Below, one piece after another: positions 3,001 to 20,826 of a DNA stretch of 20,888 nucleotides (position 1 is its first letter; every line of letters begins with the position of its first letter). Source of the DNA: a virus; the IMG/VR virus record IMGVR_UViG_3300047553_000386, positions 1 to 20,888 of that record, one strand, 5' to 3'. A program made the translations under genes and the position numbers. The notes below the pieces were generated by a model. That model was not told the DNA's origin and did no database searches. It worked only from the letters and a program-made list of their open reading frames with translations.

Positions 3001-3353
3001 CCCACTGCGCCAGTAGGTCCTACTTCTCCTTGTATGCCCTGTAACCCTTGTTCACCTTGTATGCCTTGTAGCCCTTGAGGACCAGTCGGACCAACATCGC
3101 CAGGGATGCCTTGTGGACCAGTATCTCCCGTGGTTCCAGTCGGGCCAATTGGACCAGTATCTCCCTGAGGACCAGTTGCTCCTGTAGGCCCTGGAACAGT
3201 GCTAGCTTCACCTGCTGGACCAGTAGGACCAGTCGGCCCCACGCCAGATTCTGCAACTACAGCAGACCAAACAGTGCCATTCCACTCCCAGGCGTATTCG
3301 CCAGACATGAATTGCTGCCCGATTGACGGGTTATCTGGGAAATTTAGGGGCAT
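1..3353 (-). CDS. Collagen-like tail fibre with C-terminal Asp-box repeats (3' end outside window)
   Basis: This frame stays open from an ATG at 3353 (preceded by AGGAACTGAA, a good ribosome binding site) to the left edge, giving at least 1117 residues with no stop. Residues 1-37 carry the motif [12 protein letters not shown]...WEWNGTVW, shared with the two fibres encoded at 4234-5586 and 5640-6647 and probably a docking segment. Residues about 38-490 are Gly-X-Y repeats ([17 protein letters not shown]) interrupted by small folded inserts, such as one containing [12 protein letters not shown]. From about residue 638 on there are about nine Asp-box-like motifs (S-x-D-x-G-x-x-W), for example [22 protein letters not shown] and STDGITW, as in beta-propellers of sialidase-like or glycan-binding proteins. 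I infer a trimeric fibre whose distal part recognises the host. Catalytic activity cannot be judged. The C-terminus is missing only because the window ends. Confidence 0.85.
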
Positions 3354-4224: not shown

Positions 4225-4233
4225 CTAAAATTC

Positions 4234-5586
4234 CTAAGGAATGTCGATCCAAATGTCGCCGTGTGCCATTCCCGACGTAGGAGCGGAACTCTGCACGAAA
4301 ATAGTTCGTCCACCGACTTTCTGTGAGTCAGTAGCGGTGCCAACTACGTTTCCAGTCACATCTCCTGTCAAAGATCCAGAGAATGAGTCAGCCGTAACTG
4401 TTCCAGTAAATGTTGGATTTTCTTTTATAGAAATTTGATCGTTGCTAATAACTACTGGAGATAGCGTTGAGTACACTCCCGCTGGGCCTGTTGGGCCAAT
4501 ACCTCCAGTGGCACCAGTCGGCCCCTGTGGACCCACGATTTGGCCAGCATCTGTCCAAGATGATCCGTTATATACATACAGGTTTCCATCTTCATCGTTG
4601 ATATATGCGTCATTAACATCAGCAACTGTAGGTAATTGTGCTGCGGTTGTGACTGACCCAGCGAAGTGAATGTCAGTGCCCTGTGGCCCAGTAGGACCAG
4701 TTGGACCTTGTATAGACCCCAGATCATCATAGACTTCAGAGATGGTATTCCAGAAATAAAGATGCCCATCTACAATGTAAGCTGTTCCAGCTTCATTTGC
4801 CAGCGTGGCTAGATTGAACTCGCTAGTTGTGTTAAATGAACTTAATATAGTAAATGATGCACCATCTAGTCCATTTTGACCATCTACACCATTTAAACCA
4901 TCAGCTCCAGCGGGACCAGTTGGACCAGTTGCTCCAATTTCACCGCGAGGTATCGTGAAATCTAATATTGCGTAGGTTGCAGTGCCAGAGTTGGCTACAT
5001 AGGCCTGGGTACCAGGAGCACCAGTAGTTATTGAACCAATTGCTACAGTTGCTGCTGCACCGTCTTGACCATCTGCGCCATCTAGTCCAGCGGCCCCCTG
5101 AGGACCAGTAGCTCCGTCTAATCCAGCAGGACCTGTTGGACCAGTATCTCCTGTTGCGCCTGCAATACCCTGAGGTCCAGTCGTACCCTGTGGACCTTCG
5201 GCCCCCGTGTCTCCCTGTGGTCCCGTTGGTCCAGCTGCTCCAGTAGGGCCTGTCGGGCCAACTTCACCCTGCGGACCTACAATCTGTCCAGCGTCAGTCC
5301 AGGTTTCTCCGTCGTATACATAAAGATTTCCGTCTTCATTATTTATATATGCGTGGTTAGCCTGAGCATTAGTAGGTAGATTACCTAAAGCTATAACAGA
5401 GCCTTTAAACTGTATGCTTGTCCCAGCAGCGCCTCTAGGACCAGTAGGTCCTGCAGGTCCAGTTGGACCTAACTGGGTCGAGGTCACGTCCCAGTAGTCG
5501 CCATTCCAAGTCCAAATTGGACCATCAACCTCTGGCTGATACGTAGTACCTACAACTGGATTATCTGGAAAATTTAATGCTGCCAC
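4234..5586 (-). CDS. Collagen-like tail fibre with interspersed modules
   Basis: The 450-residue protein starts with GTG, supported by AGGA upstream. Residues 1-38 carry the LNFPDNP...WTWNGDYW docking-type motif. Gly-X-Y tracts ([24 protein letters not shown]) alternate with small folded inserts. Two copies of an insert with AYIN(N/D)EDGNLYVY(D/N)G..W occur at about 56-104 and 304-352. One [12 protein letters not shown]...LDFTIPRG insert lies at about 180-214, and one ASFTILSSF...[12 protein letters not shown] insert at about 243-293. The last 60 residues ([23 protein letters not shown]...[11 protein letters not shown]...GDIWIDIP) are a common terminal module of phage tail fibres. Very close insert copies occur in the neighbouring fibres, indicating domain shuffling. 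The role is probably structural or receptor-binding. Confidence 0.85.
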
Positions 5587-5639
5587 GGTGTCGTCCTATT
5601 TTCTATGTTAAACACTGAATAAACTCGTACCAACTTCAT

Positions 5640-6646
<1,007 letters not shown>

Positions 6647-6647
<1 letters not shown>

Positions 6648-9538
6648 TATGGGGTTCCTCCATCAACAACGCTCACGTTCACCCATGTGCCTGAAGCCGA
6701 GTCATACGATAGCATGTCGCCGTCCTGTGGGTTAGGGACGTTTACTGTATTTAGGTCGTTAAGAGCTAGACCAAAGATTGCACGAACTAGAGCTCTACCA
6801 GTTTGTGCGTGCTGTCTAGTTACGGCAGCAAAGGCAGTCTTCCAAGCTGGCGCTGCTGGCATAGTTGTAGTCCAACCGCCAGGCACAAGTGGGTCTACGT
6901 AGAGCATCGATCCTACTGGGTAGTTTTCAGTATTTATATTGTTGATAAACCCAAACTGAGTAGCAAACCCGAATCCATCAGCTGGAATCTCTTCAGTTGT
7001 AACACCAACAATATATTCTGCTGGTACTGTACCATCTGCAACTGCTGGTGCAACGGTCACGGTGTCACCAGTAGATCCAACAAACATCACTGGAGTGAAG
7101 TCTGCAATGGGTGTAGTCCCAGAAGCATTTTTTACTCGAATTAGGTGCTCTTGTCCAAGCTGGAGAGTTGCTCCGTTGAGTTTTACGTCAACAGTCTCCA
7201 TATCTGGGTTCCAAGCAAGCATACCTACTTCGGTAGCTCCACCTGTGTATGTGGTATCAAACTGAATGTAGGAAGCTTCGGCAAGAGATCCAGCAGGTCC
7301 TTGGGGGCCTGTTGCACCAGTAGGACCAGTCGGACCAGGCACTGTACTATCTGCACCAGTAGGACCAGTAGGTCCTACTAACCCTTCTAATCCTTGAGGT
7401 CCAGTTGGGCCTTGAGGTCCTTGTGGTCCAGTTGGACCGATAAATGAGAAGTTGTTCCAGTAGACTCCGATAGCGCCCTCTGCTGTTGGAGCTATCGCAT
7501 CATTCTCGGCGAGACAGATATAGTAAAGACCACCGTAGAATACTATTTCGCCTGGCTGATATCCATTTGGGTAAACCCTATTTGAATCCCAAATAAATGC
7601 ATCTAATCCCTGAGCACCTGTTGGGCCAATTGGTCCCTCTTCACCCTGGATACCCTGTTCGCCCTGCGGCCCAGTTGGGCCAGTTGGTCCTACTTCACCT
7701 TGTGGGCCTGTAGGTCCTTGCTCGGTGGTGGCAACTTCAATCCAGAAGTTATCGTAGTAGATAAAGAATTTTGCAGTAGAAGTGTTGAACCAAGAGTCAC
7801 CTTGAATTGGTTCTGCTGGAGGAGTATCAGATACAGTATATGTACCCCTCTGTCCAGTAGGTCCAGTGGCTCCAGTAGGGCCGATTGGTCCTACGTCCCC
7901 TTGGGGTCCAGTAGGGCCGATTGGTCCAGTATCTCCAGTTATGCCTATTGGCCCTGTCGGACCAACTTCACCTTGAGGCCCTATAGGTCCCGTGTCGCCA
8001 GTAGCGCCAGTTGGACCCTGAGGAATTATGAACTCTAGAACCTGAGAAGGCGAGTCTCCAGTGATGGTTACTTGAGCATCTCCACCTGGAGTTCCAGTGT
8101 AAACGTTACCTACTGTCAGTTCGTTGCTAGCACCAGTAGATCCCGTAGGACCTAAGGCTCCAGTTGGTCCTACGGGACCAGTATCTCCAGTCGCACCAGT
8201 TGGACCTGTTGGACCAATTTCCCCCTGAGGTCCGACAATCTGACCTACTGACCCCCAGGTGGTTCCATCCCACACATATAGATCGCCATCAGAGCTGACA
8301 ATATAAGCATCATTGGGCTCGTTGCCAGTCTGAGGTAAGTCGTTTGCAGAAGCTACAGTCCCCACGAAATTAATACTGGTACCTTGTGGACCAGTTGCAC
8401 CAGTTGGACCAGTTGCACCAGTTGGACCAGTTGCACCAACTCTGTTGGCATTTACTTCAATCCAGAAGCCGTCATAGAAGAAATAGAACTTTGCTTCTGA
8501 ATCATTGAACCAAGCATCACCAGCCTCTGGATTTAGAGGAGGAGAAGAGGATACATAGAAATTGCCTTCAGCACCTGTAGCACCAGTTGGACCTGTAGGC
8601 CCAGTTGCGCCTTGAATACCTTGCAATCCAGGAATACCCTGCGCACCAGTTGGGCCTATAGCACCAGTTGGACCTGTAGGCCCAGTTGCGCCAGTTGGAC
8701 CAGTTATAGATAGACCAGGGATACCCTGAGACCCTGTAGCACCTGTGGCACCTGTGGGTCCTATCGGCCCCTGAGCTCCTGTTGGACCAGTTATAGATAG
8801 ACCTGCTGCACCAGTTGCACCAGTCGGACCCTGAGCTCCAGTTGGACCTTGAGCACCCGTTGGACCAGTGGCACCAGTAGCACCATCTACACCATCTACA
8901 CCGTCTACACCATTTAAACCGTCGGCTCCAGCAGCACCTGTAGGTCCTATAGGTCCCTGAGCACCTGTAGGTCCAGTTGCACCAGTAGCACCCGTCGGAC
9001 CAGTTATAGAAGCACCAGGAATACCTGCTGCACCAGTTGCACCAGTCGGACCAGTTGGTCCAGCTGAACCAGCTGCTCCTGTTGGACCAGTTATAGATAG
9101 ACCTGCTGCACCAGTTGCACCAGTTGCGCCAGTAGGTCCTGCTGCACCAGTTGGACCAGTGACACCAGTAGGGCCAGTTATTGATAGTCCAGGTAAACCT
9201 TGAGCACCAGTTGGTCCAGTAGCTCCTATAGACCCTGGGGCACCAGTTGGGCCAGTAGCTCCGTCTACGCCATCGATACCGTCTCTACCTGCTACACCAG
9301 TTGCGCCAGTAGGTCCAGTTGCACCAGTTGCGCCAGTTGGGCCTGGGACGGTGCTATCTGCACCAGTTGCACCAGTTGGACCAGTGGAACCAGTAGAACC
9401 AGTTGCACCAGTTGGGCCAGTTGCACCAGTGGGACCAGTCGGACCGCCAGCTGGCCCCGCTGGGCCTGTTGGTCCTGCTGGACCTTGGGGTCCTGGACCT
9501 TTAACGTCAACATATGCGAAGTTGTCAGAGAGTGCCAC
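6647..9538 (-). CDS. Major collagen-like tail fibre, 963 residues
   Basis: The start is GTG overlapping the TAG stop of the adaptor gene (TAGTGG), with GAGG about 10 bases upstream. Residues 13-320 are almost pure Gly-X-Y (GPTGATG). They are interrupted five times by a (L/A)SITGPTG element that breaks the triplet register. Folded inserts follow: WFN...YYDGFWIEV types at about 321-366 and 562-607, a [16 protein letters not shown] insert at about 386-440, a [11 protein letters not shown]...LEFIIPQG insert at about 470-507, and a module at about 642-700 ([18 protein letters not shown]) resembling carbohydrate-binding CBM5/12-like folds. The C-terminal ~215 residues (FDTTY...[16 protein letters not shown]...[13 protein letters not shown]...) match a domain seen in phage structural proteins. 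It lies directly downstream of the BppU-like adaptor, so it probably attaches to the baseplate. Confidence 0.88.
8570..9505 (-). repeat. Long GPT/GAT collagen-like tandem repeat
   Basis: Almost continuous 9- and 18-base imperfect repeats (plus strand caccagttggaccagtt) encode residues about 13-320 of the 963-residue fibre. Internal duplication is plain, with five near-identical copies of a block ending in SITGPTG. Such tracts are prone to length change by slippage or recombination. Confidence 0.85.
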
Positions 9539-10013: not shown

Positions 10014-10598
10014 ATGTTGACTCAACCGTTCGGTCCTGACTTAGAAATATACGTAAATGAGCTATTTTTGTCAAGTGAAGAGCTCGCGTATCTAGACGCC
10101 GAAATTGAAAAAGCAAACCTAGAAAATACATGGGCTGGAGAATCTGGCAACACAATGGATACTGGCACTTGGGGTGGTAGGAACCTATTTCTCCCAGCCA
10201 GCGAGAAGCTCTCTCAGATCCTTTCAAGGGTTATTGGTGAATATGTTGAAACAATTAAACCTCTATCTGCTGGCGAAATTGAGTTAGCTTTTGAAAAAGG
10301 CGTTGGTCCACTAAACAGAACGATGCCTGGCCAAAGCCTGCCTGCCCATGATGACATGGGGCCTCCAGAACTGGATCTGCCAGTAGCTCATGGGGTAGTT
10401 ATTTATATAAATGACTACTATGAAGGTGGTCAGCTCTACTACTCGAAGCTTGGCTTAGAGATAAAACCAAAACGAGGAATGCTAGTAATCCACTCTGCTG
10501 CAGCGCTGTATGAGCACGGTGTACGACAGGTGACTTCTGGTATCAGGTATGGCTTAACTTTGTTTGTAAATAATCCAGACAAAATGCAAAAAAGTTAG
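10014..10598 (+). CDS. 2OG-Fe(II) dioxygenase, P4H-like (plus-strand, lone)
   Basis: The 194-residue protein is the only gene on the plus strand. The double-stranded beta-helix core is clear: iron ligands H112-x-D114 (AHDDMGP), the strand YINDYYEGGQLYY (131-143), KPKRGMLVIH (151-160), distal histidine H168 (YEHGV) and 2-oxoglutarate-binding R178 exactly ten residues later (SGIRYG). This is the layout of prolyl-4-hydroxylase-like oxygenases, which couple 2OG decarboxylation to substrate hydroxylation. The N-terminal half is less conserved and probably forms the substrate pocket. GAGG lies about 12 bases before the ATG, rather far. It ends four bases into the convergent oxygenase gene. The substrate is unknown. 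Confidence 0.85.
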   Translation: MLTQPFGPDLEIYVNELFLSSEELAYLDAEIEKANLENTWAGESGNTMDTGTWGGRNLFLPASEKLSQILSRVIGEYVETIKPLSAGEIELAFEKGVGPLNRTMPGQSLPAHDDMGPPELDLPVAHGVVIYINDYYEGGQLYYSKLGLEIKPKRGMLVIHSAAALYEHGVRQVTSGIRYGLTLFVNNPDKMQKS

Positions 10599-11194
10599 TT
10601 ATTTTTTATCCAAAATACTGGTGACATGTACTTCTCCCCTGAGACTATCTCAAGTGATTGATGATAAAAAGGTTTTACGGAGGGGAAAATTACAATGCTT
10701 CCTGCTTCTGGTTTAATTCTCACCCCTTGCTGCGGGAAATCTAGCTCCCCTCCAACGCAATCATCATTAAGATAAATTACACCAGACATTACTGGCTCTT
10801 TTGTTTGACCAGGATATTCATCCACATGTGGTCCCATCGAGCCGCCTTTTATGTATTTCGAAATACTTAGTGGTGATGGCGGAAAGTACTCTAGCCCTAA
10901 TGTCTCACAGTAGTGGCGTCCAGCACTAGTCAGTGCATCCATCAATGTTTTATATAGTTCTTGTATTTCGAGTGAACTGGTTGCGAGCTTAGCGGCGTCT
11001 ACTTGTTTTTGATAACCAAATACGTATGACTCGTCGTCGGAAGCAGTCCATTTTTTCCACGAAAAAAAGGCATCCGAGCTAGTTAGAAGTGGATCAGTAG
11101 ATTCTATGAGGTCTACTAGAGCTTTTGGATTACTTACTATGTCTTTATAGTAAAAAATTCTCTGATGAAAAACTTCAGGGGTTAGATTAGCCAT
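10595..11194 (-). CDS. 2OG-Fe(II) dioxygenase, lysine type
   Basis: The 199-residue protein has iron ligands H123-x-D125 (GPHVDEY) and H178 (YHQS), with K188 (SGEKY) ten residues beyond the distal histidine in place of the usual arginine. Lysine at this point is how animal collagen prolyl-4-hydroxylase binds 2-oxoglutarate. The core strands YLNDDCVGGELDFPQQGVRIKPE and GSIVIFPSVKPF are intact. It is the last gene of the oxygenase operon and closely resembles the next gene upstream (11204-11848), consistent with tandem duplication. Its stop overlaps the end of the convergent plus-strand oxygenase by four bases. Only a weak ribosome binding site is visible. The substrate is unknown; protein-bound proline is the favoured guess from family. 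Confidence 0.85.
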   Translation of the reverse strand: MANLTPEVFHQRIFYYKDIVSNPKALVDLIESTDPLLTSSDAFFSWKKWTASDDESYVFGYQKQVDAAKLATSSLEIQELYKTLMDALTSAGRHYCETLGLEYFPPSPLSISKYIKGGSMGPHVDEYPGQTKEPVMSGVIYLNDDCVGGELDFPQQGVRIKPEAGSIVIFPSVKPFYHQSLEIVSGEKYMSPVFWIKNN

Positions 11195-11203
11195 AAGGCT
11201 ATC

Positions 11204-11848
11204 TTAGCCCATTGAGCGCTTCCAGGCAGTTCCAATGTGGTACTTCTCGCCCTCGGTGATTAAGGTAGATTGGTGAAAAAATGGCTTGACGCAAGGAAAA
11301 ATTACTAAAGTCCCCATTGAAGACTCGACAAAAACATCTTGATCTTTGAAATAAAGATCTCCACCCTTTTTGTCACTATTTAGGTACAGCAATCCAGTTG
11401 CTACAGGGGCTAGATATGGCTCGCCATCATAGTCGACGTGTGGGCCCATCTCTTGTCCGTTAGTGTATTGAAACGTAGAGAAGTCAGTCCAGTGAGCGCC
11501 ATTTTCATAGTCTATGCCTAGAGATTCGTGGTAAAACTCTCCTACTTTGTAGAATAAATCTTTTACCCAATTAAAATACCCCAGAACTCTAAGATCTGTA
11601 GTGTTGTTAGCTCTAGCTGGTGACCACTCGGCGGATCGCTTTGTTCCATATACGTGCGGGTGGTCTATAGAAGATGTCTTCCATGGCTCTAGCTTTTTGA
11701 TGATTTGATTGTCTTCCTCCCCCAGAAAAGCATCCATGTTTTTGTGATAATCAATCACCATGTCTGCTTCTTCTTGAGTTAAGACATTTTTCATAACTAG
11801 AATTTTTTCGGCAAAGAATTCTGCCTTGGCAAAATCTAAATTAGGCAT
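11204..11848 (-). CDS. 2OG-Fe(II) dioxygenase, lysine type
   Basis: The 214-residue protein has an ATG preceded by AAGGAAATAGCA. Iron ligands are H137-x-D139 (GPHVDYDGEPY) and H192 (FFHQS); the co-substrate lysine is K202 (EGEKYHIG), ten residues on. The core is LLYLNSDKKGGDLYF followed by GTLVIFPCVKPFFHQS, which aligns with the 10595-11194 product (VIFPSVKPFYHQS). The usual NDDYEGG is altered to NSDKKGG. The start overlaps the upstream oxygenase gene by eight bases. It is a P4H-like enzyme by motif, with unknown substrate. Confidence 0.84.
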   Translation of the reverse strand: MPNLDFAKAEFFAEKILVMKNVLTQEEADMVIDYHKNMDAFLGEEDNQIIKKLEPWKTSSIDHPHVYGTKRSAEWSPARANNTTDLRVLGYFNWVKDLFYKVGEFYHESLGIDYENGAHWTDFSTFQYTNGQEMGPHVDYDGEPYLAPVATGLLYLNSDKKGGDLYFKDQDVFVESSMGTLVIFPCVKPFFHQSTLITEGEKYHIGTAWKRSMG

Positions 11849-12551
11849 TGCTATTTCCTTGATGCCATAGAGCTTTTTGCTCTGTCTGTAGAATTCTTTC
11901 GAAGGCTACCTCAGCTTGGCGGGCGTCTAATTCTTCGGGGGTGTAGTAGGAGTCTGCGAAATCCCAGAATCCTACTACTGTAATTCTATCGCCAGATGTA
12001 ATCTCTTCAACCATGTGAACGTTGTTGATTCCACCTGGGAAAGTAATCAGGCTCCCCTGAGGAAGCTTAACCCTTAGATCGTGGTCCCTAAATACTAAGT
12101 CTCCACCTTCGTAGTTGTCGTTTAAGTAGAGGATGCTAGCAAACTTGTTGTCACTCCATGCCGTAGGATTTCCCTCAATATCAGAGTTGTCTGAATGCCA
12201 CCTAGCAAATGACCCTGTTGGCCAGAGTTGCGCGTGAGTAGAGTTTGTCTTGACTTCTCGACCGAAAGCTTGTTCAATAGCGGCCTTAATTTCTAGGCGC
12301 AGCCATTCAAAGTAGTCCTTGCGACGCTCTTCTAGTCCAGATCTACTCAAGGCATCCTCGCTGGATACAAGTGCCATTCCTTTAGAATCGTAAAAGCAGG
12401 TCTGCATCCAGTGACCCTCGTTAACGCCCTGATCTTCGAAAAAAGCAATAATCTGCTCGCACTGCTCTTTGTCCATAAACCCAGGGAATGTGGCAACATC
12501 ATCTTTTAGCCAAACTATTTCTCTAGTCTGCTGCTCTACTGCGTTACTCAT
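11841..12551 (-). CDS. 2OG-Fe(II) dioxygenase, HSDNSD group
   Basis: The 236-residue protein starts at ATG with AAAGGATTATAA upstream. Iron ligands are H119-x-D121 in WHSDNSDIEGNPTAW and H179 (NNVHMVEE); R189 (SGDR) binds 2-oxoglutarate. It shares the HSDN-(S/T)-x-x-x-G-x-P block, YLND-x-Y-x-GGDL and the (F/V)G-x-(W/F)D(F/Y)AD tail with the products of 14153-14887 and 14890-15576, forming one subfamily of three. This copy is separated from the other two by a pair of a different group. A 34-base gap upstream holds only its ribosome binding site. Charged residues after position 205 form a short helical tail. The substrate is unknown. Confidence 0.86.
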   Translation of the reverse strand: MSNAVEQQTREIVWLKDDVATFPGFMDKEQCEQIIAFFEDQGVNEGHWMQTCFYDSKGMALVSSEDALSRSGLEERRKDYFEWLRLEIKAAIEQAFGREVKTNSTHAQLWPTGSFARWHSDNSDIEGNPTAWSDNKFASILYLNDNYEGGDLVFRDHDLRVKLPQGSLITFPGGINNVHMVEEITSGDRITVVGFWDFADSYYTPEELDARQAEVAFERILQTEQKALWHQGNSNA

Positions 12552-12585
12552 TTATAATCCTTTAATGGTGAGGGTGACCTTACAA

Positions 12586-13377
12586 TTATAAATCTAAATG
12601 CCAATCTTGTATTCTAGGGGCATCGTGGATCTTAGCTTTTTCTACCTCTTTTTGAAGCTCAGCCCATGCCTCTTCCCCGTGGAGAGCTTCTCCTTCTAGC
12701 CACTCTGGTGTCCCAGGAAAGTGCTCTAGCCAGAAGGTTCTAATGATATATCTGGAGCCCGAAACCAGCTTAGTTACCCCGTGATAGTAGGGAGGAGTAG
12801 ATGGGAACACAACTACATCCCCCGCGGATGGCTTGAATTTGACTAATTTATACGTACTTGGATCGTTAGGGGCGTCTGTGACAACAAAAGCAAGCTCGGC
12901 ACCTTCGTAGTCATCATTTAGATACATAGTGCAAGTTAGCTTAAACTTATCTCCCCTGGCTTCCTGCTTCTCGAACTGCCAGTCCGTGTGAAATGACATT
13001 GTTATAGGTCCAGTCTGCTCTTCTGGATTAGGCTCATACACATTAAAGGACGGCGAGTCCATAATCCAGTTGTCTAGGTCGAACCCCTGAGTCTCCACGT
13101 AGTCTTTGGTGGCTAAATAGAAATATTTTTTAATCTCAAGGACAGCGTTTTTTAGGTTGCTATTAGATTGATCTCTCTCTAATTGATCTAAGTGTTGCTG
13201 CCACTGTTCCTCTGTTGGAAAGTTATCCCACTGCTCTGGAGGACACACGCCTTGAGCCATTTTTCCAAAAATCCACCACTTATCCCAAGTGGCGTTATTT
13301 TCAATCTCTTGTATTAGGTTTTGCGGATCTTTAATTAGTCCTTTGTACACCTTTATTCTAGGATCTAAGTTGTCCAC
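12586..13377 (-). CDS. 2OG-Fe(II) dioxygenase, HTDW group
   Basis: The 263-residue protein starts with GTG overlapping the TAG stop of the upstream gene (TAGTGG). Iron ligands are H130-x-D132 (SFHTDWQFEK) and H199 (YYHGV), with R209 for 2-oxoglutarate. Long stretches match the adjacent 13377-14162 product: KFKLTCTMYLNDDYEGAELAF, AGDVVVFPS, and a distinctive C-terminal extension FPGTPEWLEGEALHGEEAWAE that other oxygenases here lack. This marks a recent tandem duplication. In this copy the conserved GG of the YLND strand reads GA. The N-terminal half has a tryptophan-rich WDKWWIFG block, perhaps part of the substrate site. Confidence 0.86.
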   Translation of the reverse strand: MDNLDPRIKVYKGLIKDPQNLIQEIENNATWDKWWIFGKMAQGVCPPEQWDNFPTEEQWQQHLDQLERDQSNSNLKNAVLEIKKYFYLATKDYVETQGFDLDNWIMDSPSFNVYEPNPEEQTGPITMSFHTDWQFEKQEARGDKFKLTCTMYLNDDYEGAELAFVVTDAPNDPSTYKLVKFKPSAGDVVVFPSTPPYYHGVTKLVSGSRYIIRTFWLEHFPGTPEWLEGEALHGEEAWAELQKEVEKAKIHDAPRIQDWHLDL

Positions 13378-14162
13378 TATTCAACCGTTCTACGAGAAGA
13401 GATGAACTCGTGCTCTCTCTTTTTCTCCATCTCGGCCCAAGCCTCTTCGCCGTGCAGTGCTTCTCCCTCTAACCATTCAGGGGTGCCAGGAAAATACTCT
13501 AGCCAAAAGTTTCTAATAAAGAATCTATCTCCATTAGTTAGTGGTTTTACTCCATGATAAAAAGGTTCTGTTGACGGAAAGACTAGGATATCGCCTGCTG
13601 TAGGTTTATAATCAAACTTGAAATCGTTAGATGGGTCATCCCTATTTTCACGGATAATGAATGCTAACTCGCCACCATCGTAGTCGTCGTTTAGATACAT
13701 AGTGCAAGTCAATCTAAACTTAGTACCTCGTGACTCTGCCTTCTCTGGCTGCCAGTCAGTGTGGTAGTGCATTGTCATCTCACTGGTAACTCCAGCGTCT
13801 GACTTATATAAGCAGACCGAAGGGGTTTGATGTACCCAGTTGTCTAGCTCGAACCCGTGATGTTCTACGTATAACTTTGTAGCTTCGTAGAAATAGTTAT
13901 CAATTTCGGCTGTCAGCTCTGGGTGCTTCGTTTGACGCAAAGATGTTATGTGCTCTTGCCATTGTTCGTCATTTGGGAAATTCTCCCAAGTGCTATCTGG
14001 CCCACCCAGCTCATCATTGATTAGGCCGAAGACCCACCAGGGTTGCCAGTTAGGTAAAGCCTTCAAGTTTTCCATCAATTTTTCAGGATTTTTAATAGCT
14101 CCACGAAAAACCCATACTTGTGGGTGAAGTTCTTCTAGTGAATCTGCTAAGTTTATGCCCAT
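13377..14162 (-). CDS. 2OG-Fe(II) dioxygenase, HTDW group (duplicate)
   Basis: The 261-residue protein is a paralogue of the 12586-13377 product along its whole length, including the N-terminal WQPWWVFG block and the C-terminal LEYFPGTPEWLEGEALHGEE extension. Iron ligands are H134-x-D136 (HYHTDWQPEK) and H203 (FYHGV); the 2-oxoglutarate arginine is R213 (GDRFFIRN). The ATG overlaps the previous gene by ten bases, with GGGGCAATAA before it. The best-conserved parts of the pair are the core strands and the tail. The middle region (residues 60-90) differs, as expected if the two enzymes diverged in substrate preference. Confidence 0.87.
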   Translation of the reverse strand: MGINLADSLEELHPQVWVFRGAIKNPEKLMENLKALPNWQPWWVFGLINDELGGPDSTWENFPNDEQWQEHITSLRQTKHPELTAEIDNYFYEATKLYVEHHGFELDNWVHQTPSVCLYKSDAGVTSEMTMHYHTDWQPEKAESRGTKFRLTCTMYLNDDYDGGELAFIIRENRDDPSNDFKFDYKPTAGDILVFPSTEPFYHGVKPLTNGDRFFIRNFWLEYFPGTPEWLEGEALHGEEAWAEMEKKREHEFISSRRTVE

Positions 14163-14887
14163 TTATTGCCCCTGGCCCATTCTTCTCTAGCTGCAGCCTT
14201 CTCGGCTTCTACTCTTTCGCGCTCTGCAGCCCACTCGGCCTGTCGCTCCTCGCTATACTCTGCCTCGGCAAAATCCCAGAAAGAAACCATTGTATAACGT
14301 ACGCCATCCGTAACCTCTTCGACACCGTGAATGTTTTCAATACCACCAGGGAAGATAATGTAGGACCCAGCCTTAGGGGTTATTGTTAAAGTTTTCTCGT
14401 TGATGTTGTCGGTTTTCGTGAAGAAAAGATTACCGCCCTCATACTCGTCATTGAGGTACAAGATTCCTACGTATTTATTAATCTCGAATAGGGTAGGATT
14501 TCCATCAAAATCTGAGTTGTCGGAATGTGGCGATGCAAATCCGCCAACTTCCCATTTTTGCGCGTGTGACGTGTTTGGTTTTACTGGTCTACCAAAAACT
14601 TCACCTACAGCTTCTTGAAATCTTTTTGTCAGTGTCTCAAAGAACCTGGGTGGTAGGCCCACTTTTTCAATATTGGGGTCTTCTGGGGCAATACCCATGC
14701 CACTTGACTTGTAGAAAGCTACATCGCCCCAGAGGTCGCTGCGGGCCTCAAAAAAATCAATCATCTTTGCAGCAGTTTCCCTATCAACAAAGTCAGGGAT
14801 TTCCACGATTCGATTTTGAGTGACGCCAAGCTTATTTACTGTTGTCGGCTCGTCTCTGTAGACCACGAAGGTTGATTTATCTAGCAT
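14153..14887 (-). CDS. 2OG-Fe(II) dioxygenase, HSDNSD group
   Basis: The 244-residue protein starts at ATG with GGAGCGAATAATC upstream. Iron ligands are H121-x-D123 (SPHSDNSDFDGNPT) and H187 (ENIHGVEEV), with R197 (DGVRY) for 2-oxoglutarate. The pattern ILYLNDEYEGGNLFF, FPGGIENIHGVEEVTDG and VSFWDFAEAEY matches the 11841-12551 product, and it forms a neighbouring pair with 14890-15576. The C-terminal ~35 residues are a highly charged glutamate/arginine/alanine-rich helix, possibly coiled coil. The substrate is unknown. Confidence 0.86.
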   Translation of the reverse strand: MLDKSTFVVYRDEPTTVNKLGVTQNRIVEIPDFVDRETAAKMIDFFEARSDLWGDVAFYKSSGMGIAPEDPNIEKVGLPPRFFETLTKRFQEAVGEVFGRPVKPNTSHAQKWEVGGFASPHSDNSDFDGNPTLFEINKYVGILYLNDEYEGGNLFFTKTDNINEKTLTITPKAGSYIIFPGGIENIHGVEEVTDGVRYTMVSFWDFAEAEYSEERQAEWAAERERVEAEKAAAREEWARGNKWA

Positions 14888-14889
14888 GA

Positions 14890-15576
14890 TTATTCGCTCC
14901 TCAGAACTCTTTCTTCTGGCATACCCTCAGTCTCCCATTCCTGGCGCTGTTGCTGATGGATTTTAGCTGTTTCCTCTAATTCTAGTCTCTTTTGTTCCCA
15001 GTAATCTTCAGGGTACGTTGAATCTGCGTAGTCGAATGAAGCTAGCATTGTCCACCTGCTACCAGCTGTAACCTCAGTCACTCCATGGACGTTTTCTATG
15101 CCGACATCAAAAACTACAACAGTCCCAGCCTTAGGGGATATCTTTATAGGGTGGTCCCTGAAAATTAAATCACCGCCAGAATAATCATCATTTAAGTAGA
15201 TTATTGTAACTAGCTTATTTTCTCGCCAAGCATTAGGTGTACCGTCTAGCTCTGTGTTGTCAGAGTGATAGTCAGCAAAAGCACCTTCTAACCACTTGTG
15301 GGCACTCAGGCTAAGGTTTTTTAGCTCTTTAGAAAACAGCTCTTCTGCCAGACTCTGTAGTTTAAATCTGAGATTTTTCATATAATCTTCATCAATAGAT
15401 AAAGATTTTCCAGCCTGCCACGGCGCTATCGGGTCCATAACTCTAGCGTTATAGAAACAAGTTTGCTGCCATGAGTCCTTGTCTGACTCAAAATATGCGA
15501 TTAGGCTGCTTACTTCATCTGTGGAGAGGAAGTTCTCAACCTCATAGACGTCTGGTTTGTGGGCGATTACTTTCAT
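14890..15576 (-). CDS. 2OG-Fe(II) dioxygenase, HSDNTE variant
   Basis: The 228-residue protein has an ATG preceded by AAGGGTAGTTT. Iron ligands are H104-x-D106 (DYHSDNTELDGTPNAW) and H164 (ENVHGVTEV); R174 (AGSRW) binds 2-oxoglutarate. The core IIYLNDDYSGGDLIFRDH and AGTVVVFDVGIENVHGV aligns with the other two HSDN-type members. The C-terminus is a charged glutamine/glutamate-rich helix (QKRLELEETAKIHQQQRQEW). Two bases separate its stop from the next start. It is a P4H-like fold by motif, with unknown substrate. Confidence 0.86.
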   Translation of the reverse strand: MKVIAHKPDVYEVENFLSTDEVSSLIAYFESDKDSWQQTCFYNARVMDPIAPWQAGKSLSIDEDYMKNLRFKLQSLAEELFSKELKNLSLSAHKWLEGAFADYHSDNTELDGTPNAWRENKLVTIIYLNDDYSGGDLIFRDHPIKISPKAGTVVVFDVGIENVHGVTEVTAGSRWTMLASFDYADSTYPEDYWEQKRLELEETAKIHQQQRQEWETEGMPEERVLRSE

Positions 15577-15579
15577 AAA

Positions 15580-16266
15580 CTACCCTTTAGAGACGTTATG
15601 TTTCACGATAGTCCAGAAAAATGGCACGGTATACCTAATGCCAGACTCTATTGGACTAACTCCGTGAATGTAATTCATATCTCCAGGGAAAAAGTAAGCT
15701 GCTCCAGCTTTAGGCTTGAATTGAATTCCCTGGTTCGGAAAATACAACTCGCCGCCAACGTAGTCATCGTTTATATAGAACAAGCCAGCAATATCGTAGT
15801 AAGGAAAGTCATTAGGCTTACCCCTACCTTCCCCCTCGTGCAACTCCTTATCGGCATGCGGCATTTGTAGTTGTCCAGGTAGCCACCTAACAATGGCTGG
15901 ACTAGTTGCTCTAGCATCAACATCGAAAAACGCGTCTACTCTCTCTTTTAGACGCGCTTGCATTCCGATAATTATTTGCGTAATTCTAGGGTCCACTTTG
16001 TCTAACGTAGTTGCAGTGGCTACTCTATCTTCCCAGTATCCTGAGTCATAGATAACCGTACCATCCTCATTATAGTGAGTTTCTGTTTTATCCCATTCTG
16101 TATTGCGTCTCGCAAACTCGTTGAGGATTGTCAACTCTTCTTCGGTCATGAAGTCTTCAATTGTGATGATATTGTCTGCAGAGTCTCCAAAAAATCCTGA
16201 CGGAGTTATTGAAGCCCTAAGATCGTCATGCCTATTTGTGTAGTCTGTAGAAGTTTGATCCATCAT
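15580..16266 (-). CDS. 2OG-Fe(II) dioxygenase, HAD type
   Basis: I choose the ATG at 16266, 13 bases after the stop of the upstream gene with TAGGT ahead of it, giving 228 residues. An in-frame ATG at 16329 would add 21 polar residues and a 50-base overlap. Iron ligands (from 16266) are H137-x-D139 (MPHADKELHEGEG) and H201 (NYIHGV), with R211 (SGIRY) for 2-oxoglutarate. The core reads AGLFYINDDYVGGELYFPNQGIQFKPKAG. It has no close sibling in the cluster, and a charged glycine-rich loop (KELHEGEGRGKPND) follows the iron site. It is downstream of the DUF6065-like pair. The substrate is unknown. Confidence 0.83.
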   Translation of the reverse strand: MMDQTSTDYTNRHDDLRASITPSGFFGDSADNIITIEDFMTEEELTILNEFARRNTEWDKTETHYNEDGTVIYDSGYWEDRVATATTLDKVDPRITQIIIGMQARLKERVDAFFDVDARATSPAIVRWLPGQLQMPHADKELHEGEGRGKPNDFPYYDIAGLFYINDDYVGGELYFPNQGIQFKPKAGAAYFFPGDMNYIHGVSPIESGIRYTVPFFWTIVKHNVSKG

Positions 16267-16279
16267 GGTTATATTATAC

Positions 16280-17020
16280 CTATTCGTATTTTCTGCGTTC
16301 CCAGACTTCTTTGATGTAGATTCCGCCATCTGGTTGGCGGTATTTCTCGCTATTTAAACGATTCTTTTCCATCATTTCCTGGGGTGATATTTCGAGATCT
16401 ACCTCGGACTCCCAGTGTTCACGCTTAAATGGCAATATCTGAGCATATGGTGTGCCAGCAGGGATGACCCCCGTGAATCCTTTAATGATAAAGAATGGCA
16501 TAGTTCCAGGAAGCTTAACTTTGTCATTATCAATAATTCCGCTAGTGGTCAAAAATGGCAGTTCGTACCTATTAAACGGCTGAGTATATAGCGCACTGTA
16601 GCCTTCAGGTAGTTCTACTGCCCAGTCTGCCCACCAAGCAAAGTGCTTATCATGGTACCCGTGAGGGTGCTTGAACTGAGGCATTGGCGATCGCTCTTGG
16701 ATAAAATCTTTGCTGCGCTCGTCTTCTATTTTTATCTGAACCATACCCATGGTATCGATAAAAACCTCTATGTCACAGGGGGTCTTATAGACGTATCCGC
16801 TGCCCATAATGTCGAAGACCGCTGGACAAGCCTTCCAAGTTGGGATCTTTCCGCTACCATCTGGCATCTCCCATGGCTTCCCTGTTGCTGGATTAGTTGC
16901 AAACCTGTCAGCTTTCCTGTACCAGTTAGGTAGGGTTTTGATTATTGGAGAAGGTACAGAAGAACTTTCCTCATTTAGCCATGGCCTATTTTTTACAAAT
17001 TTAATCTTCTGCGTGTCCAC
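16280..17020 (-). CDS. DUF6065-like protein of unknown function (first paralogue)
   Basis: The 246-residue protein starts with GTG behind GAGG and overlaps the upstream gene by 20 bases. It has no oxygenase HxD...H core. Residues 23-40 (PSPIIKTLPNWYRKADRF) and 60-84 (PTWKACPAVFDIMGSGYVYKTPCD) precede a beta-rich part with YSALYTQPFNRYELPFLTTSGIIDN (141-165) and VIPAGTPYAQILPFKREHW (185-203). The second half aligns with the neighbouring 17001-17762 product, whose VITIPAGQPIAAILPI is the same element, so the two are probably distant paralogues. My assignment to the DUF6065-type family is from memory of the pattern and is tentative. Its place in the middle of the dioxygenase operon suggests a shared pathway, perhaps as a substrate-binding or sugar/peptide-handling partner. 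This is inference. Confidence 0.7.
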   Translation of the reverse strand: MDTQKIKFVKNRPWLNEESSSVPSPIIKTLPNWYRKADRFATNPATGKPWEMPDGSGKIPTWKACPAVFDIMGSGYVYKTPCDIEVFIDTMGMVQIKIEDERSKDFIQERSPMPQFKHPHGYHDKHFAWWADWAVELPEGYSALYTQPFNRYELPFLTTSGIIDNDKVKLPGTMPFFIIKGFTGVIPAGTPYAQILPFKREHWESEVDLEISPQEMMEKNRLNSEKYRQPDGGIYIKEVWERRKYE

Positions 17021-17762
17021 TAGCCTCGGTGTCCTCTACTTCATATGTCTGGCCAGTAAATGGGCAGTGCACAGTTTTTAATTTAATAGACTTTGTTTCG
17101 TGCTGGCCCACTTGCTCTCCTCTGTAGTTGACTGCATCTCTATACATTTTTGACCAATCGCCAACACCATTTTTTATTTCAGCCTCGTCGCCATACTTTT
17201 TGACTTCATCCCAGTATTCGGTTCCAAGCGGAGTTTCATCCAACTCTAAAACGTAATCTTCTTGCAATGACGTCAACGAAATTGGCAGGATCGCAGCTAT
17301 TGGTTGTCCCGCTGGGATTGTTATGACTACGTTTGGTTCCGTAACTCTCCAAGCAAGAGGAAGTTCTGGCATATAAAACGAGGTGCTAATCAGCGTTGTA
17401 TAACATTGAGCACCTCTGACAAAAAGGTTCGGCACTGGCATAGTCAGTGTGCTTGTTTCTGGATCTGTCCTAACTAGCAATCCAGAATAAAAACTAATAG
17501 TTGCGTTTCCTCGGACAGTGCTTACGTATTTTTGTCCACTTAATATTTTTATGTGATCTGGAGTTGTGTCAGTTATGCCGTCCCAAATGAATGAAATATC
17601 TTCGGGAAAAGATATACCCCAGCCTAGTCGATTGGTCAGAGATAGCGGAAAGCACATGTAAGCGTGCTTTTCTTGGGTCTCATTCATCCACTCCCTAGTT
17701 CCAGGTAGCTGCTCTATGTGGGCTGCTCCTGGGTGGGTTTTTTGTACAGCAAACTTCTTCAT
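17001..17762 (-). CDS. DUF6065-like protein of unknown function (second paralogue)
   Basis: The 253-residue protein begins at ATG 17762 and lacks a strong ribosome binding site; its start is three bases from the upstream stop. Residues 22-61 (TREWMNETQEKHAYMCFPLS...LGWGISFPEDISFIWDG) match what I recall of DUF6065 family proteins, which have an N-terminal W-M---P--F-Y-C-P--I-N---GW pattern. Residues 146-160 (VITIPAGQPIAAILP) are the element shared with the 16280-17020 product. No signal peptide, membrane segment or known catalytic motif is visible. It sits between two groups of oxygenases in the same operon. The biochemical role is unknown. Confidence 0.7.
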   Translation of the reverse strand: MKKFAVQKTHPGAAHIEQLPGTREWMNETQEKHAYMCFPLSLTNRLGWGISFPEDISFIWDGITDTTPDHIKILSGQKYVSTVRGNATISFYSGLLVRTDPETSTLTMPVPNLFVRGAQCYTTLISTSFYMPELPLAWRVTEPNVVITIPAGQPIAAILPISLTSLQEDYVLELDETPLGTEYWDEVKKYGDEAEIKNGVGDWSKMYRDAVNYRGEQVGQHETKSIKLKTVHCPFTGQTYEVEDTEASGHAED

Positions 17763-17765
17763 GTT

Positions 17766-18524
17766 TTAAGAGTTTGTCTCTTCCAAAAACATACCGCCGT
17801 GGAATTTGTCCGAGTAGTCCAACATAGTAACCATCGAGTACTTAGTTCCAGATACTACTGGCATTGCTCGGTGTGGGTACATAAAGTTCGATGGGAAGAT
17901 AAACAGATCCCCCGCTCTGGCTTTAATCTTGATATTTTGAAGTCTGAAGTACAGCTCTCCACCCTCGTAGTCGTCATTCGGATATCCAACTAGAGACACT
18001 ACACAGTTGTAAGAGTAGCCATGATCATGGTGCTCTTGGAAGTGCTGCCCTGGGCCATATTTAATATAGTTTGTGGCTTCCCAGTAACGCAGCTCACCAA
18101 TATTGTAGCGACGAGTGTAGTCCTTAACTACCTGCTTCTGTCGATAGATGGTTTCGTCTGCAAGCTCTCTAAGCTTGTCGCCCCACTCTGAAGTATCGTG
18201 GTCAAAGTCATGTCTTTTGTATTTAAAATCATAGCAGTCTCGATACTCTGGAATCTTCATTGAGTACCCAACCATAGCTTCTTGGTACTCGTAATCGTTG
18301 TCTGGAGAGTGCAAGACCTCCTCGATTCGCTCGATTATGTTCATATCTTTAGGTAGAACGTCGTGATATACCCAGATGCCCGATCCAGGGCGAACCTCTT
18401 CTGCAGAGCTCCAAGTAATCTCGTCCAGTGTGTACCACTTAGCAAGCCGATCATTTAACATTTCTTGCTCTGCTTGGCCTTCAGTGGCAGTTGCCTTCTT
18501 TACCTCGTTAGTATTTGAGTTCAT
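17766..18524 (-). CDS. 2OG-Fe(II) dioxygenase, HxDHG lysine type
   Basis: The 252-residue protein starts at an ATG just after AAGGA (only two bases' spacing) and overlaps the previous gene by 17 bases. Iron ligands are H165-x-D167 within EHHDHGYSYN, and H218 (YPHRA); K228 (SGTKYS) takes the 2-oxoglutarate position ten residues on. The core is VGYPNDDYEGGELYFRLQNIKIKARAGDLFIFPS. It is a sibling of the 18508-19239 product, sharing HxDHG-x-x-Y, NDDYEGGEL-F and SGTKYS-V-M-DY. The long N-terminal half (residues 1-150) is rich in tyrosine, aspartate and arginine. The substrate is unknown. Confidence 0.86.
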   Translation of the reverse strand: MNSNTNEVKKATATEGQAEQEMLNDRLAKWYTLDEITWSSAEEVRPGSGIWVYHDVLPKDMNIIERIEEVLHSPDNDYEYQEAMVGYSMKIPEYRDCYDFKYKRHDFDHDTSEWGDKLRELADETIYRQKQVVKDYTRRYNIGELRYWEATNYIKYGPGQHFQEHHDHGYSYNCVVSLVGYPNDDYEGGELYFRLQNIKIKARAGDLFIFPSNFMYPHRAMPVVSGTKYSMVTMLDYSDKFHGGMFLEETNS

Positions 18525-19239
18525 ATTCCTTAACCGTCTGCGATACTCTGTGGTTCACGCCGTCTCTATCATTATAGTCACTCATTATTACAACAGAGTA
18601 CTTAGTTCCACTAATCATTTCCTGGGACGCATGCTCATAGATATAAGTAGATGGAAATACCACTATATCTCCTGCTTTTGGTTTTATAACTAAATTGAAT
18701 CTAGGAAACCAAAGCTCTCCTCCTTCATAGTCATCATTGAGGTATGCAACTATAGATGTCGTTGAGACATAAGTAGGTCCGTGATCCGCGTGAATCCTAA
18801 AATGAGTACCAGCTCCTTCATATTTTACAAAATTGAAGGCTTCGTAGGAATTAATTCCTACTCCCCAGTACTGGCCGTAATCGTCTACACAGCGTCTAGT
18901 GGATTGAAAAATCTCTTCATGCATAGAGTAAAGAGCAGCAGTTTCTTGAGTCTTCGGTCCTAGACCAGTTGAATTAAACTTAAAATCCTTAGCATTTCTA
19001 GACTCTAAATCCAACTCTTCTGATGTAGTAACGTAAGCGCCGCTCCAACGAAACCGAGTTTGACCATTTAAATGTGACTCTAAAGTCGAGATATACTTTT
19101 TACAATTAGGTTCGCTCAGAGCATTTCTATAAATATTTATACCGAGAGCTGGATTTAATACTTCTATTTGACCTATATATCTAGCAGGCATCCTATTGCT
19201 TGCGGTCTCTGACCTGTCTTTAGTAAACCAATCATCCAT
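18508..19239 (-). CDS. 2OG-Fe(II) dioxygenase, HxDHG lysine type (duplicate)
   Basis: The 243-residue protein has iron ligands H150-x-D152 (RIHADHGPTY) and H203 (YEHAS), with K213 (SGTKYS) as the likely 2-oxoglutarate anchor. The core reads VAYLNDDYEGGELWFPRFNLVIKPKAGDIVVFPSTYIYEH. It pairs with the 17766-18524 product over the catalytic half, while the N-terminal halves have diverged. The ATG overlaps the first gene of the operon by eight bases. This pair and the 10595/11204 pair are the lysine-type enzymes of the window. Confidence 0.86.
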   Translation of the reverse strand: MDDWFTKDRSETASNRMPARYIGQIEVLNPALGINIYRNALSEPNCKKYISTLESHLNGQTRFRWSGAYVTTSEELDLESRNAKDFKFNSTGLGPKTQETAALYSMHEEIFQSTRRCVDDYGQYWGVGINSYEAFNFVKYEGAGTHFRIHADHGPTYVSTTSIVAYLNDDYEGGELWFPRFNLVIKPKAGDIVVFPSTYIYEHASQEMISGTKYSVVIMSDYNDRDGVNHRVSQTVKEYELKY

Positions 19240-19840
19240 GAGACGAGTCTACAGGATTTCTACCTAAAACTGCTGGACTTAGATGATATGAGTCGCCCTC
19301 TGGTAATAGTCCATTGTCCATTAAATCGTACATATACTCTTGCCCGTGAGTGAAGTACCAGTGATCATCTAAGCAGAAGTGGAACATAATTACTTCAACT
19401 CTATTATTTTCTGGATCTGGCATATCGTTTCGCCAGTGATAATCGTGTCCACCAGTAAACACTAAAGCCTGGTTTGGGCCAAAAACAAACTCTTCGCCCT
19501 CGACTACTACCCCCCATGGGGTTTTAGCAGATACGCAATAATCAACTGTATAAGTACAAGCATTATTGTCGAGATGTGCTGGCAGCTTTGATGTTGGTCG
19601 ATCGTAATCTAAGTAAACCGCGTAAGTTGATTTAATACGAGTACTGCCGAATATTTCTTGAACTATTGGCTCTATTTTTTTGCTGAAATATGAGTCAAGC
19701 TCGGTGAATTTTAAGACTCTCCTATCATTATTAGGGTCTAGCCAATTCTTGGCGTATGACTTCGAGTTCAGCAGCTGCCTAAGGTACTGCACATCTTCGC
19801 TACTAAATACGTCATTAAGAACTACTGGATTAAAGTGCAA
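19232..19840 (-). CDS. Divergent 2OG-Fe(II) dioxygenase-like protein, first gene of operon
   Basis: The 202-residue protein starts with TTG, placed six bases after a strong GGGAG; no better ATG exists nearby. It is the most divergent member. A candidate iron site is H89-x-D91 (PAHLDNN) with distal H135 (DYHWRND) and R147 (NNRVEVIMFHF), twelve residues on instead of ten. The YLNDDYEGG strand is replaced by YTVDYCVSAKTPWGVVVEGEEF. Downstream, HFCLDDHWYFTHGQEY is unlike the others. It resembles more distant 2OG oxygenase families in phages, and activity is less certain than for its neighbours. It follows the terminator at 19859-19892 and so is likely the promoter-proximal gene. Confidence 0.7.
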   Translation of the reverse strand: MHFNPVVLNDVFSSEDVQYLRQLLNSKSYAKNWLDPNNDRRVLKFTELDSYFSKKIEPIVQEIFGSTRIKSTYAVYLDYDRPTSKLPAHLDNNACTYTVDYCVSAKTPWGVVVEGEEFVFGPNQALVFTGGHDYHWRNDMPDPENNRVEVIMFHFCLDDHWYFTHGQEYMYDLMDNGLLPEGDSYHLSPAVLGRNPVDSSHG

Positions 19841-19911: not shown

Positions 19912-20826
19912 CTATTCGGTATCCCACTCTGACATGTACTTGTCTAGCTCTCGTGGGTCAATCGAGTAACCACCAAAGCGAGGAGGGAAGAACGGTGGGA
20001 AGTAAGGTGGGAAGTAAGGGAATCTAGGCGGGAAGTAAGGCGGGAAGTAAGGCGGGAAGTAAGGCGGGAAGTATGGAGGGAAGAACGGTGGGAAGTATGG
20101 TGGGAAGTATGGAGGGAAGAACGGTGGGAAGTATGGTGGGAAGTATGGAGGGAAGAACGGTGGGAAGTAAGGTGGGAAGTATGGTGGGAAGAACGGTGCA
20201 ACAGTTGTAACGTCAGCAGTTAGAGAGCCAAGCGAAGTTCCGTTAGCATTTACATGGTATAGAGTATAGTTCTGGGTTGAACCACCATTTTCAGCCTCTG
20301 TCCAAGGATTTGTAGTCATAACTACTTGACCAGGGTTAGTTGCCTGGTCACTAGATACAAAATATGTGCTAGTGATTGCTTTACCGCCGTCAGCACCGTT
20401 AGACCACGAAATCACGTCTTGATTAGCTGCAGTAGATACAGCTGACGCATTCTGAGGGGCTTGAGGTACTGTCGTTATGGGAGTTGAGCTTGAAGCTGCG
20501 GACTCGGCTGACGTTCCAGATGCGTTAGATGCAGTGACTTTAAAAGTGTAAGAAATCCCAGAGTCTAGACCAGTAATTGTAATTGGTGAAGATGCCCCAG
20601 TGTTGGTTGCAACTTGTGAATCTAAGGTGCTCCCATTCTTATAGGCGTTTACAGTATAAGAAGTTGCTGCAGGAGAGTCAGCTGACAGCTCGAACGAGAC
20701 AACAGCAGCTCCATCGTTATATGGTCTGTTTGTACCTACGTCAGTAGCTGATACATTGATAGGCGGTTTCGGCTCAAGAAAGTCATTTTGAGAAGCTGAC
20801 TTTCCACCTGCTTCTTTCTTTGCCAT
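19912..20826 (-). CDS. Fn3-like protein with long (F/Y)FPP repeat, putative virion protein
   Basis: The 304-residue protein starts at ATG behind GAGAG. Residues 19-116 are a fibronectin-III domain (INVSATDVG...VVSFELSADSPAATSYTVNAYKNG...ITGLDSGISYTFKVTASNASG), followed by a second, shorter Ig/Fn3-like segment to about 209. Residues 212-284 are 17 tetrads FFPP or YFPP with a single RFP break, a strikingly regular aromatic-proline tract. The last 20 residues (GGYSIDPRELDKYMSEWDTE) form a charged tail. There is no signal peptide. Fn3-like domains are common on phage capsids and tails, so a surface-exposed structural protein is likely. It ends in front of a terminator and the oxygenase operon. 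The tract may be a substrate for the neighbouring hydroxylases (inference). Confidence 0.82.
   Translation of the reverse strand: MAKKEAGGKSASQNDFLEPKPPINVSATDVGTNRPYNDGAAVVSFELSADSPAATSYTVNAYKNGSTLDSQVATNTGASSPITITGLDSGISYTFKVTASNASGTSAESAASSSTPITTVPQAPQNASAVSTAANQDVISWSNGADGGKAITSTYFVSSDQATNPGQVVMTTNPWTEAENGGSTQNYTLYHVNANGTSLGSLTADVTTVAPFFPPYFPPYFPPFFPPYFPPYFPPFFPPYFPPYFPPFFPPYFPPYFPPYFPPYFPPRFPYFPPYFPPFFPPRFGGYSIDPRELDKYMSEWDTE
19975..20193 (-). repeat. (F/Y)FPP tandem repeat, 17 tetrads
   Basis: The tract encodes residues 212-284 with a 12-base unit (plus strand ggtgggaagtat or similar) nested in a 36-base higher-order period FFPP-YFPP-YFPP that is nearly perfect at DNA level. The near-identity of copies implies recent expansion or active homogenisation. 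Confidence 0.92.

Follow-up and report, generated by a model that had tools for sequence, protein, structure and literature searches.

A conserved array of 2-oxoglutarate-Fe(II) oxygenase genes behind a Phe/Pro-repeat gene suggests a protein-hydroxylation cassette in uncultured phages

The window analysed here, one IMG/VR contig of 20,888 bases (IMGVR_UViG_3300047553_000386), carries between positions 10014 and 19840 a dense array of 2-oxoglutarate (2OG)-Fe(II) oxygenase genes that lies behind the gene for a protein with a Phe/Pro repeat. An earlier note on this DNA had claimed twelve such dioxygenases in consecutive or near-consecutive genes, all with intact metal ligands and an Arg or Lys anchor. 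Twelve open reading frames (ORFs), called by a simple longest-ORF method, are present in this region. All but one of them (10014-10598, plus strand) are on the minus strand, and neighbouring genes of the array are separated by no more than 34 bases or overlap by up to 50 (Table 1). The hidden Markov model search that the note had named places eleven of the twelve products in PF13640 (2OG-FeII_Oxy_3) at 28 to 50.3 bits, above the curated cut-off of 27 bits, and a six-frame search agrees. In each of the eleven the metal ligands are intact, with an HxD motif, a distal histidine and an Arg or Lys exactly 10 residues further on, the spacing that had been described for eleven genes. The genes are near-consecutive rather than strictly consecutive, with a DUF6065 gene (17001-17762) and a phrog_7084 gene (16280-17020), neither of them an oxygenase, in between. 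Pairwise identity among the paralogues of the window is mostly 20-39%, with the highest pair at 50%, so they do not stem from one recent amplification.

The remaining ORF (19232-19840) is only a probable distant member of the superfamily, since it has no Pfam match and no Arg or Lys at +10. Its sole profile match is to phrog_2954. Its HxD motif is invariant in five homologues; close homologues are found in few relatives only, and comparison with the other eleven by hhalign gave a probability of 3.5%, which is not significant. The safe count would be eleven plus one probable. The locus holds eleven or more 2OG-Fe(II) oxygenases whose iron and 2OG ligands are intact, in a gene order that is conserved across divergent uncultured phages.

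Table 1. Genes of the window, listed in the reading direction of the minus strand.
Feature	Coordinates	Strand	Evidence and remarks
FN3-domain protein with C-terminal (F/Y)FPP tract; first cassette gene, proposed main substrate	19912..20826	-	PF00041 E=3.5e-8; 17 PP units
Probable distant 2OG-oxygenase-like gene, accessory	19232..19840	-	TTG start; phrog_2954 6.5e-10; HLD at residue 89
2OG-Fe(II) oxygenase O1 (core)	18508..19239	-	PF13640 44 bits; reciprocal best match at O1 slot, 45-75% identity, most arrays compared
2OG-Fe(II) oxygenase O2 (core)	17766..18524	-	PF13640 50.3 bits; AlphaFold2 pLDDT 94.1; Foldseek top 50 nearly all prolyl hydroxylases
DUF6065 protein (D), cassette core	17001..17762	-	PF19541 2.1e-26; model pLDDT 89.7
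phrog_7084 protein (S), cassette core	16280..17020	-	phrog_7084 1.3e-32
2OG-Fe(II) oxygenase O3 (core, most conserved)	15580..16329	-	PF13640 28 bits; reciprocal best match at O3 slot, almost all arrays compared, mostly 54-78% identity
2OG-Fe(II) oxygenase (variable part)	14890..15576	-	PF13640 47 bits
2OG-Fe(II) oxygenase (variable part, widely shared)	14153..14887	-	PF13640 44.9 bits; reciprocal best matches in most arrays
2OG-Fe(II) oxygenase (variable part)	13377..14162	-	PF13640 47.9 bits
2OG-Fe(II) oxygenase (variable part)	12586..13377	-	PF13640 43 bits
2OG-Fe(II) oxygenase (variable part)	11841..12551	-	PF13640 39.7 bits
2OG-Fe(II) oxygenase (variable part)	11204..11848	-	PF13640 33.7 bits
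2OG-Fe(II) oxygenase (variable part)	10595..11194	-	PF13640 43.3 bits
2OG-Fe(II) oxygenase, opposite strand (variable part)	10014..10598	+	PF13640 32.9 bits
Collagen-like (GXY) fibre protein, possible second substrate	6647..9538	-	PF01391 6.3e-64
Collagen-like fibre protein, possible second substrate	5640..6647	-	PF01391 1.9e-23
Collagen-like fibre protein, possible second substrate	4234..5586	-	PF01391 4.9e-18; tail-fibre PHROGs
Second (F/Y)FPP-tract protein with Ig-like domain, possible substrate	3418..4224	-	He_PIG 6.9e-12; 8 PP units
Collagen-like fibre protein, open at contig end, possible second substrate	3..3353	-	long GXY tracts

The AlphaFold2 model of one of the eleven enzymes (17766-18524) is confident (pLDDT 94.1) and shows the double-stranded beta-helix that the note had looked to structure prediction for. 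Searched with Foldseek, the model matches prolyl 4-hydroxylase (P4H) structures with E-values down to 3e-11, and nearly all of the top 50 matches are prolyl hydroxylases. The nearest folds are those of the Pseudomonas putida P4H with EF-Tu, PHD2, the Chlamydomonas P4H-(Ser-Pro)5 complex, PBCV-1 vCPH, Bacillus anthracis P4H and C-P4H-II, the last of these (7zsc, E=2.8e-9) pointing to a catalytic domain like that of collagen-type prolyl 4-hydroxylase (C-P4H). Sequence profile matches are to P4H, PiuC, PBCV-1 P4H, prolyl 3-hydroxylase 1 and LH3, and the H-D-H-R/K signature is retained in 712 of 734 distinct homologues (97%). By predicted structure, prolyl hydroxylases are the nearest group to this enzyme. 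The PKHD-type hydroxylases (PiuC/YbiX) have the PF13640 core region in common with the window enzymes, but none of the nine genes tested out of the eleven reached the NCBIfam equivalog cut-offs (best 38.1 bits against 143). PF13640 is the sole family matched by the oxygenases at E<=0.01, with no match to the AlkB or TET-JBP Pfam families. The PHROG labels 'DNA endonuclease' (phrog_2297, phrog_274) and 'ferrochelatase' (phrog_3531, phrog_2954) also match oxygenases at 10014-19840, and the same names are borne by 2OG genes in RefSeq cyanophage records; they are probably misannotations.

Relatives were collected by an alignment search of IMG/VR, of which the best 80 loci were kept. PF13640 genes occur in all 48 relative records that were searched whole, at 3-13 each. 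With P for the Phe/Pro-repeat gene, O for an oxygenase, D for DUF6065 and S for phrog_7084, the gene order is stable as P-O-O-D-S-O-O-O..., with a variant P-O-S-O-D-O-O.... Three oxygenases, O1, O2 and O3, hold their slots in most arrays by reciprocal best hits, mostly at 45-78% identity, and the others vary in number and order between arrays; beyond the tail of the array there are in some cases collagen-like genes or additional Phe/Pro-repeat genes. The survey of viral genomes for large arrays and their neighbours proposed in the note gave related loci with 8-11 oxygenases together with conserved partners. Of the loci compared, the window shares the highest count, eleven oxygenases (here within 9.3 kb), with one other lineage, and many loci have 8-10, so that the window is an extreme case of a common arrangement. 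The array, which had been called exceptional, is so against cultured phages, but it is ordinary within this group of uncultured freshwater phages. The proposal of a dedicated hydroxylation locus holds, given the family matches, the conserved ligands, a confident model near prolyl hydroxylases and a gene order kept across divergent phages; the likely substrate gene (19912-20826) and the DUF6065/phrog_7084 pair had not been seen.

The window is extended by another contig (G001; 34,651 bases), which matches it at 99.99% identity over 16.7 kb. By inspection only, G001 has tail-fibre-type genes before the FFPP gene and a primase-like gene and glycosyltransferase-like genes after the collagen-like genes. 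In some arrays the variable part is interrupted by an SDR-like and a methyltransferase-like gene, both named by eye (G027:C1:41988-43805; L141 (G030)), which are possibly further fibre-modifying enzymes. Megablast of the array gave no relatives among cultured phages by DNA. WhiB-like genes, a family characteristic of Actinobacteria and their phages, are present in 7 of 21 larger contigs (G012, G020, G023, G026, G029, G031, G033), so that at least some phages of the group probably infect freshwater Actinobacteria.

The DUF6065 and phrog_7084 products of the window are direct members of their families (PF19541 and phrog_7084) and form a fixed pair inside the hydroxylase arrays. Comparison by hhalign shows the two to be remotely homologous (87.7%, E=3.4e-6). 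The best Foldseek matches of the DUF6065 monomer model are dUTPases, at modest scores (E 5e-4 to 6e-3, target-normalised TM 0.5-0.7), and a dUTPase-like beta fold is predicted; there is also a weak sequence match to Wsv112 (E=0.11). Of the five dUTPase sequence motifs, GVIDxDYxG and PRSxx were looked for by eye in the conserved columns and not seen. Modification of DNA or nucleotides by TET/JBP- or AlkB-like enzymes, with the dUTPase-fold proteins in the same pathway, would fit the predicted fold and the 'DNA endonuclease' label of related families. It is nevertheless highly improbable, as the Pfam matches are to PF13640 and to neither AlkB nor TET/JBP, the fold matches are prolyl hydroxylases, the DUF6065 columns lack recognisable dUTPase motifs and the genomic partner is a structural repeat protein. 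More tentatively, the pair might serve as a scaffold or substrate-presenting factor rather than as nucleotide hydrolases. No mention of DUF6065 was found in a literature search that was thin on subscription journals. Homologues of phrog_7084 occur in 49 halovirus records; in Haloarcula virus HJTV-3 (L002) the relative at 6908-7744 lies beside adhesin and tail-fibre genes and, unlike in the window, no 2OG oxygenase is annotated there.

The gene at 19912-20826, directly upstream of the array in the reading direction, ends in a tract of (F/Y)FPP units. In more divergent arrays (L063, L065, L070, L072) FFPP is replaced by a second repeat type, the hexapeptide FF(A/S/G)PP(G/L/N/R). Many of the Phe/Pro-repeat proteins of the relatives end in a Hint/intein-like domain (C-D-G-D-T... 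...HN) that follows the repeat tract immediately (L090:9873-11210, L101:17379-18698, L104:2011-2916, L095:2478-3953 and others), with a PF14890 match of 33 bits, just under the cut-off. This suggests that the fibre may undergo self-cleavage or modification at its C-terminus. At the sensitivity used, 50,697 phage records gave no match to the repeat protein, to DUF6065 or to a large structural protein from a relative. The (F/Y)FPP pattern is nearly virus-specific, with 18 stretches in 257 Gb of prokaryote genomes. Metagenome-assembled genomes (MAGs) with long tracts (L385, L390/L397, L398) also bear oxygenase and DUF6065-family genes, and the stretches there are for this reason probably phage, either contigs binned into MAGs or prophages. 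The MAGs of L385, L390, L397 and L398 are assigned to Verrucomicrobiales, Gammaproteobacteria and Chitinophagaceae.

IMG/VR was also scanned at the DNA level for two and a half (F/Y)FPP units and nothing else. At least 119 loci in 57 clusters were analysed, as a sample of IMG/VR rather than its full total, and the control scans, for a common tail-fibre motif and for collagen-like GPTGPT, are likewise samples. For counting, at least 3 kb of available sequence was required and an oxygenase within 5 kb was scored. Among the matches listed, oxygenases lie downstream of the repeat in 69 of 82 loci and upstream in none of 56; after clustering the figures are 32/39 and 0/28. The tail-fibre motif had no oxygenases on either side (0/58 downstream, 0/78 upstream), and the collagen-like motif had them downstream in 4 of 47 loci and upstream in 0 of 77. 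At 24 repeat loci the retrieved segment holds no oxygenase; for 15 of these, PF13640 matches lie in other parts of the contig, six or more in 11 cases, and many have a full array. Fifteen repeat loci had no called ORF; all are in-frame tracts that end at contig ends or have no start recognised by the caller.

The association also holds when approached from the arrays. Scored by a composition-based rule, and counting as upstream a distance of up to three genes or a place among the array's first genes, a Phe/Pro-repeat gene lies just upstream in 50 of the 55 arrays that have an upstream gene (30 of FFPP type and 20 of FFxPPx type such as FFAPPG), whereas none of 184 other genes at these loci is of this kind. 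Under the strict FFPP pattern half of the arrays had appeared to be without a repeat gene, a view overturned by the second repeat type. This directional association suggests that the enzymes hydroxylate the repeat tail. An auxiliary metabolic role, in which the oxygenases lower or sense host 2OG or oxygen and the fibre neighbourhood is incidental, has been put forward for the 2OG oxygenases of T4-like cyanophages (PMC3037559, PMC9602691). One 2OG-consuming enzyme would suffice for this, whereas what follows the repeat gene directly is a set of many diverged paralogues in a conserved order, with none at the 56 upstream sides, and we consider such a role very unlikely.

Beyond the array the window carries four collagen-like genes and the second FFPP protein (Table 1). 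Across the relatives, collagen-like genes are found within three genes of the far end in 14 of 67 arrays, as against 2 of 184 genes elsewhere. Oxygenases are more numerous in arrays whose far end is followed by a collagen-like or Phe/Pro gene (mean 9.1 against 5.35, Mann-Whitney p=1.5e-4; 7 versus 40 arrays, uncorrected for phylogenetic dependence). These observations, together with the B. anthracis and PBCV-1 P4Hs among the nearest relatives, would fit the collagen-like fibres (3-9538) as the main substrate, as in animal collagen or in the viral pairing of P4H with collagen-like proteins. The canonical C-P4H site in collagen is proline at the Y position. In the GXY triplets of the window (3-9538) proline occupies X in 41% and threonine Y in 44%, but proline is found at Y in just 2%; this, and the absence of a collagen-like neighbour from most arrays, makes it less likely that canonical collagen hydroxylation is the main role. 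The reading of collagen as primary partner was demoted on the 4/47 downstream count among the matches listed, and as the main substrate it is unlikely. A host protein or surface polymer, such as EF-Tu or a glycopeptide, might instead be hydroxylated, the nearest fold match being the P. putida P4H crystallised with EF-Tu. A single host target would leave unexplained both the consistent place of the array behind one structural repeat gene and the larger arrays beside more fibre genes, and we regard it as decidedly unlikely.

We favour as the probable explanation that the locus is a phage protein-hydroxylation cassette, whose oxygenases are peptidyl hydroxylases acting on the repeats of the adjacent fibre. 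The enzymes, most likely prolyl hydroxylases, would act late in infection and at multiple sites on the (F/Y)FPP or FFxPPx repeats. O1-O3 may perform the universal part, and the variable enzymes may hydroxylate other positions, or additional collagen-like and Phe/Pro fibres. Hydroxyproline stabilises polyproline-II and collagen helices. Hydroxylation of the repeat could stiffen or stabilise it, alter its surface chemistry or supply anchor points.

Several points weigh against this explanation. We infer a virion location for the repeat protein from its tail-fibre neighbours and FN3 domains. The loci share descent, so that the counts are not fully independent, and the number of oxygenases shows no correlation with the length of the repeat tract (rho=-0.02). 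Proline, phenylalanine, tyrosine, lysine and asparagine are all possible targets for the superfamily, the canonical C-P4H site is scarce in the window triplets, as given above, and the need of one repeat for three to eleven enzymes is unexplained. Taken further, a fibre gene for an FFPP polymer, three core hydroxylases, a dUTPase-fold scaffold pair and an expandable set of further enzymes might together make up an undescribed phage system that produces a hydroxylated aromatic-proline virion material; this wider proposal is conceivable, though we hold it more doubtful than not.

Comparable enzymes are known from other systems. The vCPH of PBCV-1 reportedly has as substrates proline-rich repeat peptides that PBCV-1 itself encodes. 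It resembles the window enzymes in being a viral 2OG enzyme related in sequence (E=2.7e-8) and fold (PDB 5c5t/5c5u), but it is a single enzyme of an algal virus, with no array and different repeats. We know of no DUF6065/phrog_7084 partners for it. The best solved relative by profile is the B. anthracis prolyl 4-hydroxylase (PDB 5hv0, E=1.8e-10), a bacterial peptidyl-prolyl hydroxylase, which unlike the window enzymes is presumably the product of a single chromosomal gene and has different substrates. PBCV-1 is cited as a precedent for viral prolyl hydroxylation of proline-rich repeats (Eriksson 1999, cited in PMC9301287). Cyanophages usually carry 1-5 2OG oxygenases (PMC3037559, as summarised in PMC9602691). 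Cyanophage S-SCSM1 has 24 2OG-Fe(II) oxygenase genes (PMC9602691) and S-CREM1 has ten (PMC9964418), read in both cases by their authors as metabolic genes. Both phages resemble the window in their many diverged 2OG oxygenases, and in S-SCSM1 several are interleaved with tail-fibre genes; its oxygenases, however, lie in small groups over the genome, with no D/S pair detected and no FFPP gene beside them. A literature search for phage prolyl hydroxylation, thin on subscription journals, found nothing. Many 2OG genes in one phage and viral prolyl hydroxylation are already known, whereas a multi-enzyme phage cassette with a repeat partner appears to be undescribed so far.

2OG-Fe(II) oxygenases are frequent in aquatic phages, and the literature consulted here mostly treats them as metabolic genes without a known substrate. 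The conserved order of a substrate gene followed by its enzymes offers a direct test, namely hydroxylation on one defined repeat. If the proposed explanation is true, phages build hydroxylated structural polymers by means of multi-enzyme arrays, in a manner comparable to the processing of collagen and extensin, and the FFPP repeat would then be a new material that is genetically encoded and comes with dedicated modifying enzymes.

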